From Candidatus Berkelbacteria bacterium (GTDB taxonomy: Bacteria > Patescibacteriota > UBA1384 > DTJR01), in assembly GCA_026397175.1 (NCBI GenBank), contig JAPLVK010000011.1, forward strand, positions 1 through 47,206: DNA of 47,206 bases, read 5' to 3'. The position numbers and the translations under genes were made by a program. Below are positions 9,640 through 16,048 of this stretch, piece after piece; positions within the stretch are counted from its first letter, which is position 1; the number at the start of each line of letters is the position of its first letter. Under the pieces are notes generated by a model, which was not told the origin of the DNA, searched no databases, and saw nothing but the letters and a program-made list of their open reading frames with translations.

Positions 9640-9675
9640 GCCCCACTTCTCTGCTTCGAAGTATAATAGTGGTAA
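9640..9675. promoter_or_regulatory. Degenerate palindrome P1 upstream of TrpR-like gene 1
   Basis: CCACTTCTCTGCTTC|GAAGTATAATAGTGG; 12 of 18 arm positions symmetric. Confidence 0.65.
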
Positions 9676-9689
9676 AATGAATATATAAT

Positions 9690-9971
9690 ATGGTAAAAAG
9701 AGGAATTGATTTTGAATCGAAAAAGTTACTGATCGAGTCACTAGAGAAATTAGAAAGTGATGAGTTTGTTGATTTTCTTGAGTCACTTTTATCATCAACG
9801 GAAATAAAAAATATCTCTCGCCGCACTATGGCAGCAAAAGTATTGTTTGAAAAACATACCTACGAAGATGTTGAGGAACTCATGGGAATGTCGCCTGGAA
9901 CTATCAACAAAATTCATTTCAAAACCAAAGGCAGTCCAGCTTTCCGTAAACTATTCGACACAAAACGCTAA
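9690..9971 (+). CDS. TrpR-like (YerC/YecD-type) HTH DNA-binding protein, copy 1
   Basis: 93 aa; SRRTMAAKVLFEKHTYEDVEELMGMSPGTINKIHFKTKG Trp-repressor-family fold. Confidence 0.88.
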   Translation: MVKRGIDFESKKLLIESLEKLESDEFVDFLESLLSSTEIKNISRRTMAAKVLFEKHTYEDVEELMGMSPGTINKIHFKTKGSPAFRKLFDTKR

Positions 9972-9972
9972 T

Positions 9973-10008
9973 TTTCCACTTCCATACTTCGAAGTATAGA
10001 AGTGGCAA
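9973..10008. promoter_or_regulatory. Palindrome P2 just downstream of TrpR-like gene 1
   Basis: CCACTTCCATACTTC|GAAGTATAGAAGTGG; starts 2 nt after the stop codon; no T-tract follows. Confidence 0.8.
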
Positions 10009-15164: not shown

Positions 15165-15200
15165 ATTCTACTTCCATACTCTAGAGTATGGAAGTAGAAT
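15165..15200. promoter_or_regulatory. Perfect 36-bp palindrome P3 upstream of TrpR-like gene 2
   Basis: ATTCTACTTCCATACTCT|AGAGTATGGAAGTAGAAT; all 18 arm positions symmetric. Confidence 0.9.
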
Positions 15201-15202
15201 AA

Positions 15203-15493
15203 ATGATAATGCCAGAGAGAAATATTGATAGAAAAGCCAAGGAATTATTTATTAAAACTCTTGCAGAGCTTAAAAAAGAAGATGATATTTTGATGTTTCT
15301 TGAAAACCTGTATTCCTCTTCGGAAGTTAAGGATCATTCACGACGACTGCTGGCTGCAAAAATGTTGATCGAAGGAAGTACTTACGAAGATATCGCTTTG
15401 GTTATGGGCATGGGGACAGGAACCATTAATAAAATACACTTTAAGACCAAGGGTAGTCCTCTTTTAAACAAATTATTTAAAGAAAGGCAATAA
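15203..15493 (+). CDS. TrpR-like (YerC/YecD-type) HTH DNA-binding protein, copy 2
   Basis: 96 aa; SRRLLAAKMLIEGSTYEDIALVMGMGTGTINKIHFKTKGSPLLNKLF, clearly paralogous to 9690-9971. Start may be 15209. Confidence 0.88.
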   Translation: MIMPERNIDRKAKELFIKTLAELKKEDDILMFLENLYSSSEVKDHSRRLLAAKMLIEGSTYEDIALVMGMGTGTINKIHFKTKGSPLLNKLFKERQ

Positions 15494-15528
15494 TTCTGCT
15501 TCTATACTCTAGAGTATAGAAGCAGAAT
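15493..15528. promoter_or_regulatory. Perfect 36-bp palindrome P4, starting on the last base of the TrpR-like gene 2 stop codon
   Basis: ATTCTGCTTCTATACTCT|AGAGTATAGAAGCAGAAT; no T-tract follows. Confidence 0.9.
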
Positions 15529-15538
15529 AGTAAGAGAT

Positions 15539-16048
15539 ATGAAATGTGCACGAGATGAAAAGATGGATATTGTTGATGAAAATGACGGGGTTATTGGGAG
15601 TGCGACGCGAAAAGAAATTTATGAAAAAGGGCATCGCCATCGAATTGTACATGTTTTAGTTTTTAACAAAAGCGGTGAGATGCTGCTGCAACTGCGGTCA
15701 AAAAAAGTTGATTTTTTGCCCAGATATTGGAGTACTGCGGCCGGGGGCCATGTTTCATCCGGCGAGAGTTATCTAGACGCCGCAAAAAGAGAGCTAAAGG
15801 AAGAACTAGGGATTACCGGGGATTTGCAAGGAATTGGGAAATACGAATTTTATGGCACGATAAATAAAATATATAAATTTATCTACTTTTACAAAATTGT
15901 TTTTGATGGAAGATTCAATTTAGATTATAATGATGTCGAGAAAGTTGAATTTTTTTCAAAAGATAAACTAAGAAAGATGATAAAAAATGGCAGTAAGATT
16001 CATCCGGAGTTATTGTTTTATCTTAAAAAATATTTGGAGGAAAAATGA
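15539..16048 (+). CDS. Nudix hydrolase (IDI-like)
   Basis: GGHVSSGESYLDAAKRELKEELGI Nudix box. Confidence 0.9.
   Translation: MKCARDEKMDIVDENDGVIGSATRKEIYEKGHRHRIVHVLVFNKSGEMLLQLRSKKVDFLPRYWSTAAGGHVSSGESYLDAAKRELKEELGITGDLQGIGKYEFYGTINKIYKFIYFYKIVFDGRFNLDYNDVEKVEFFSKDKLRKMIKNGSKIHPELLFYLKKYLEEK

Follow-up and report, generated by a model that had tools for sequence, protein, structure and literature searches.

Matched palindromes bracket TrpR-family genes recurrently in Patescibacteria genomes

A gene of the TrpR family placed between two matched palindromes is a real and recurrent architecture in Patescibacteria genomes, and apparently an undescribed one, since a literature search came across no account of TrpR-like genes bracketed in this way in the candidate phyla radiation (CPR). 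The unit studied here occupies positions 15165-15528 of a contig of a Candidatus Berkelbacteria bacterium (assembly GCA_026397175.1, contig JAPLVK010000011.1), whose whole analysed stretch of 47,206 nucleotides (nt) is hereafter called the window. The explanation that we favour, with moderate confidence, is that of an autoregulated TrpR/HisR-type repressor whose paired own operators are kept alike by concerted evolution, the palindrome sometimes spreading in the manner of repetitive extragenic palindromes (REPs). The window unit consists of an upstream palindrome (UP), a gene and a downstream palindrome (DN):

15165..15200, no strand: UP palindrome, perfect, 36 bp, ATTCTACTTCCATACTCTAGAGTATGGAAGTAGAAT; an exact fit to TACTNCNATACTNNNNAGTATNGNAGTA
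15203..15493, + strand: TrpR-family (PF01371) helix-turn-helix (HTH) gene, 96 aa, assigned by Pfam and by AlphaFold2 and Protein Data Bank (PDB) fold match
15493..15528, no strand: DN palindrome, perfect, 36 bp, ATTCTGCTTCTATACTCTAGAGTATAGAAGCAGAAT; overlaps the last base of the stop codon

An earlier note on this DNA had described two perfect 36-bp palindromes bracketing a 96-aa gene, and both were confirmed on the sequence at the positions claimed. The UP copy ends 2 nt upstream of the first ATG (15203). A second ATG follows at 15209, and this is probably the start that the subfamily conserves. UP and DN differ at four bases that form two mirrored pairs, so that the symmetry is kept, as the note had also remarked. 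With up to 3 mismatches allowed, the degenerate 36-mer finds 2 sites in the window and 0 in 100 shuffles; no such palindrome is expected by chance.

The open reading frame (ORF) matches PF01371 Trp_repressor (E 4.8e-8, 33.4 bits versus a curated cut-off of 27), and relatives are likewise over that cut-off. The earlier note had called the gene TrpR/YerC-like; its score of 37.2 bits against the TIGR02531 YerC/YecD equivalog lies under the cut-off of 42.2. The AlphaFold2 model of the protein (predicted local distance difference test score 91.6) has TrpR-like 3g1c as its closest PDB fold match (TM-score on the query, TMq, 0.83), with 3kor and TrpR also leading. The 40 best PDB matches are of TrpR type throughout (TMq up to 0.83, probability 0.96-1.00), with a best Foldseek E-value of only 3e-3; the model also matches 1trr, by its title a tandem TrpR-DNA complex. 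No catalytic domain was detected in the window gene, which shows only PF01371 and weaker HTH-type matches, and the same is true of seven bracketed relatives.

To measure how often the unit recurs, we looked up to 130 nt from each end of every TrpR-like ORF in the fetched loci and scored any matched pair of palindromes there; all other ORFs of at least 80 aa away from the units served as controls. A pair scoring at least 20 was present for 44 of 98 TrpR-like ORFs versus 10 of 496 controls in the Patescibacteria genomes sampled, a bracketed fraction to be read as an estimate because the loci were picked for their homology to the window gene and an earlier run had been seen before the threshold was fixed. 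At least 5 of the 10 scoring controls are REP-associated tyrosine transposases (RAYTs), and five of the top six start like RAYTs. Control L129_4 (locus L129, G027:C22) is a confirmed Y1_Tnp, and L150, L151, L153 and L155 were fetched because they match PF01797. These five loci hold CPR RAYT/Y1 transposase genes between matched palindromes and are the top-scoring controls; the test therefore recovers the one known kind of palindrome-bracketed gene.

On the tree, the bracketed label requires 14 changes versus 32 when shuffled, so bracketing is passed on within clades and was gained or lost several times. Every unit carries a palindrome of its own. The palindrome-HTH-palindrome cassette proposed by the earlier note thus recurs across the phylum. 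Stably syntenic homologues lacking the pair, which according to the note would refute it, were not found in the bracketed clades; the unbracketed homologues (54 of 98) lie mostly in other clades. No relatives were found in viral contigs, plasmids or PHROGs, and no Rfam family at the palindromes. Five weak matches in phage records (30-37%) were set aside, as they look like ordinary HisR-type genes and the four examined have no bracket.

The two palindromes of a unit evolve together. For 19 locus pairs with common neighbouring genes, a few of which share a single weakly similar neighbour, UP-DN core identity is 0.88 within a unit versus 0.69 for UP-UP and DN-DN between loci. The pair L013/L090 illustrates this (0.93/0.93 within units versus 0.68/0.68 between), and the pattern is unchanged in the best-supported pairs (L013/L090, L112/L180, L179/L188 and L187/L188). 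Furthermore, where the arms of UP and DN differ, the difference is mirrored in 28 cases versus 3.8 expected. Taken together, within-unit identity and mirrored changes indicate that the two copies evolve jointly and stay symmetric. Template switching at quasi-palindromes could preserve symmetry without selection. UP and DN agree fully in the 6-bp centre in 35 of 44 units, 18 of these centres not being self-complementary, versus 1.4% between units. Since binding alone would not require an identical centre, this suggests that sequence is copied from one site to the other. In some orthologues (L022 vs L096, L071 vs L093) the centre is flipped in one copy.

With regard to their content, the palindromes resemble operators of the TrpR type. 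Pooling 176 half-sites gives the consensus TACTnCnATACT beside a 4-bp centre, the full palindrome being TACTNCNATACTNNNNAGTATNGNAGTA, and each arm has two ACT half-sites spaced 8 bp apart (TACT-N4-TACT). Known TrpR and HisR repressors recognise palindromes of approximately 20 bp (TrpR half-site GNACT; TrpR operator TGTAcTnGTnnACnAgTACA; HisR operator cacTTTAnnnnnnTAAAgtg) and regulate themselves through an upstream operator (PMC9413887). The bracketed units do not fit the HisR operator; an unbracketed CPR homologue (L064) has a single upstream site that does fit the HisR consensus. Palindrome distance weakly tracks recognition-helix distance once the N-terminal part is allowed for (partial r 0.15, p 0.012). 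Considering the TrpR-type half-sites, the tandem complex, the helix correlation and the HisR-type site of L064, the palindromes most likely serve the encoded protein as extended operators. The units share with TrpR/HisR (YerC/YecD; PF01371, TIGR02531) the TrpR fold with its HTH, putative palindromic operators with TrpR-type half-sites and probable autoregulation through an upstream operator. They differ in that (i) their putative operator is longer (28-40 bp, with four TACT half-sites) and duplicated behind the stop codon; (ii) operators are private to each unit and evolve in concert; and (iii) the window genome has no other target found, and the sequence is below the YerC/YecD equivalog cut-off.

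According to the favoured explanation, a TrpR-fold dimer would bind both palindromes, probably with more than one dimer on the 8-bp-spaced TACT half-sites. On the UP copy, the protein would shut off its own promoter, as TrpR and often HisR do; on the DN copy, at the stop codon, it might act as a roadblock or form a bridge to the first site. Copying or conversion between the sites, followed by co-adaptation with the protein, would account for the concerted evolution, and in some lineages the palindrome would additionally spread as solo copies. What was observed is the architecture, its recurrence, the content of the half-sites, the joint divergence of the two copies and, in one genus, the dispersal of solo copies; binding, repression, the part played by DN and the mechanism of copying are inferred. 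Several results weigh against this explanation: (i) the recognition-helix partial correlation is small and the N-terminal part correlates equally well; (ii) evidence for a promoter placed on UP is weak (13 UP versus 8 DN sites score at least 9; enrichment of TTGACA, 6 versus 2.8 expected); (iii) the distances between UP and DN show no helical phasing (Rayleigh p 0.87), so that of the paired looping operators suggested by the earlier note the pairing is well supported, by half-site content and co-divergence, and the looping finds no support; (iv) the identity of the non-symmetric centre exceeds what an operator needs; and (v) solo copies in two genomes presented below (G004 and G005) show no clear association with promoters. 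A search for a -10 or -35 box at a fixed place relative to the UP copy gave a weak signal.

The architecture, widespread in the sampled CPR genomes and recurrent in many families, offers dozens of natural protein-site pairs whose specificity would have shifted jointly, a ready set for learning how TrpR-type proteins choose DNA. It also raises the question of why a repressor should require an additional operator past the stop codon of its gene.

A second unit of the window (9643-10008), overlooked by the earlier note, was found by searching the window's own genome for paralogues:

9643..9672, no strand: UP palindrome of the second unit, imperfect, CCACTTCTCTGCTTCGAAGTATAATAGTGG
9690..9971, + strand: second TrpR-like gene, 93 aa, 55% identity to the first
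9973..10008, no strand: DN palindrome of the second unit, TTTCCACTTCCATACTTCGAAGTATAGAAGTGGCAA; nearly perfect, immediately after the stop codon

The arms of the second unit are similar to those of the first (CACTTCCATAC vs TACTTCCATAC), and the 6-bp centres differ (TTCGAA vs TCTAGA). No other match to either palindrome was found in the 1.01-Mb draft genome of the window, where the sites occur only at the two units. Close relatives in three further genomes of the class bring this subfamily to seven copies in four families, separated from other TrpR-like genes by a sharp score gap (1e-39 and better vs 1e-17). A palindrome lies on both sides in all seven copies, one of which, in genome G022, is a pseudogene. 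The seven copies occupy seven different contexts without common neighbours, and the gene is missing from sister genomes. Genome G008, of the same genus as G022, carries a truncated unit, whose site does not correspond to that of the most similar copy of G022, as well as one solo palindrome; solo copies exist in G027 and G049 too. Empty sites were sought in G035 and G008, where the neighbourhoods are rearranged and no clean empty site was seen. A chimeric ORF of G008 (L164, 2432-3352; G008:C19) begins with approximately 24 codons of a truncated TrpR-like unit, followed by an unrelated secreted-looking protein. In G027 (L113, 8500-11200; G027:C3), a nucleoside-hydrolase-like gene and a TrpR unit lie upstream of secY, where G035 has a ribosomal-protein gene; the spc ribosomal operon thus appears split in G027.

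Two rival explanations are improbable. One of them regards the palindromes as RNA-level elements, namely hairpins at both transcript ends that act as terminators or mRNA-stabilising stems. The copies at 15165 and 15493 are indeed very stable folds (z -6.1 and -5.6), and DN is at the stop codon, its core starting a median of 3.5 nt past it. Nevertheless, RNA hairpin functions are less likely, because the coding strand has no T-tract and arm mismatches show no excess of G-T over A-C (37 vs 27, p 0.26), contrary to RNA pairing. The former result agrees with the earlier view that DN is not a canonical terminator: no stem with a T-tract was found on the coding strand, and the sole terminator-like match, on the other strand, is no more than expected by chance. 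Besides, the imperfect UP palindrome at 9643 gives no fold signal (z 0.19), and hairpins leave unexplained both the sequence-specific half-site and the match between the two ends; we consider this the most improbable of the explanations. Hardly more probable is a plain local regulon, in which each palindrome would be the operator of the following gene and DN would merely control the next one. The units are often followed, at 40-180 nt, by a gene of the same orientation, and in the window a NUDIX gene at 15539 comes next after DN; but in several units (L009, L079 and L088) the next gene is convergent, and a variable centre would have no need to match. Since DN abuts the stop codon and persists at orthologous loci where the downstream gene differs (L007/L009, L071/L093 and L017/L066), it belongs to its own gene and not to the neighbour.

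A third rival, clearly less probable than the repressor with paired operators but far from negligible, is a REP/RAYT-like mobile module, whose palindromes would be element ends copied within genomes, alone or along with the HTH gene; the encoded protein would bind these ends and some other enzyme would cut. The units resemble RAYTs (Y1_Tnp, PF01797) and their REPs in the single gene between two matched palindromes, the sometimes dispersed intergenic palindrome and the complementary changes that keep symmetry. Consensus-palindrome matches number 18 in G004 and 7 in G005, two sister species of a single sister genus, with few elsewhere; the fetched contigs of G004 hold 11 exact copies, two bracketing a TrpR-like gene and nine solo, and the solo copies recovered are identical over a 28-bp core. 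None of six comparable solo sites is common to G004 and G005, whereas the bracket pair is; three of these comparisons rest on one flank and the intergenic regions are rich in other repeats, and hence no precise empty site was obtained. The distribution of the window subfamily, with its lack of common neighbours and the non-equivalent site in G008, speaks for mobility as well, and identical centres with differing arms are reminiscent of recombination sites. On the other hand, the gene lacks a catalytic domain, target duplications were not found either, the window genome has no solo copies, and Y1_Tnp was not detected in G004, G005, G176, G128, G097 or G022. A RAYT acting in trans was set aside, given that Y1_Tnp is undetected in several bracketed genomes. 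In addition, several units are syntenic across species or genera (L022/L096, with the same mutM-like gene adjoining; L013/L090; L084/L086; L015/L094; L089/L104) and so are not hopping there. The flanking palindromes of RAYTs are inverted, while those of the TrpR-like units are mostly direct (22 direct versus 4 inverted at a score difference of at least 5, orientation being unreadable in fully symmetric pairs, that of the window included). Moreover, the units have no Y1 domain, solo copies are few or absent in most genomes, and the palindrome is AT-rich, continuous and without a GTAG head. The idea of a mobile or REP-like cassette in the earlier note therefore stands in part: cassettes and dispersed exact solos at unshared sites exist, as does a patchy subfamily, but cross-genus synteny speaks against it, no transposase is needed, and no clean empty site emerged.

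Xer/dif-type modules, with a 28-bp core of 11-6-11 and a centre that matches between two flanking sites, have the same core layout and centre match as the bracketed units. The arms of the TrpR-like units, however, match the TrpR half-site and not dif, the unit has no recombinase, and its centre flips in some orthologues (L022 vs L096). A bolder, rather doubtful proposal is a transposase-free, operator-bracketed HTH element, in which the DNA-binding protein and its palindromic site would form a selfish pair. Copies of the site would be placed on either side of the gene and, in certain lineages, throughout the genome; conversion or site-specific copying would keep them identical, and the protein would persist because it acts on them. 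If it is true that the palindromes copy themselves, the units would form a REP-like system lacking a transposase.

Some minor observations concern solo and shared palindromes. The intergenic regions of G004 (L222-L261) and G005 (L262-L301) are full of other repeat families, such as GTTCTCGCTTCCGCTCGAACAGTA (x34), and the solo palindromes sit amid those repeats with partly conserved flanks. Solo consensus palindromes also occur in short gaps between tandem genes, for instance rfbC-like/rfbB-like, at L202 (G123) and L208 (G288). Finally, one 28-bp palindrome (TACTGCAATACGAGAAAGTATTGCAGTA) is identical in three genera of two families, at L200 (G303), where it brackets a TrpR-like gene, and at G395:C26:7156 and G209:C9:9851.
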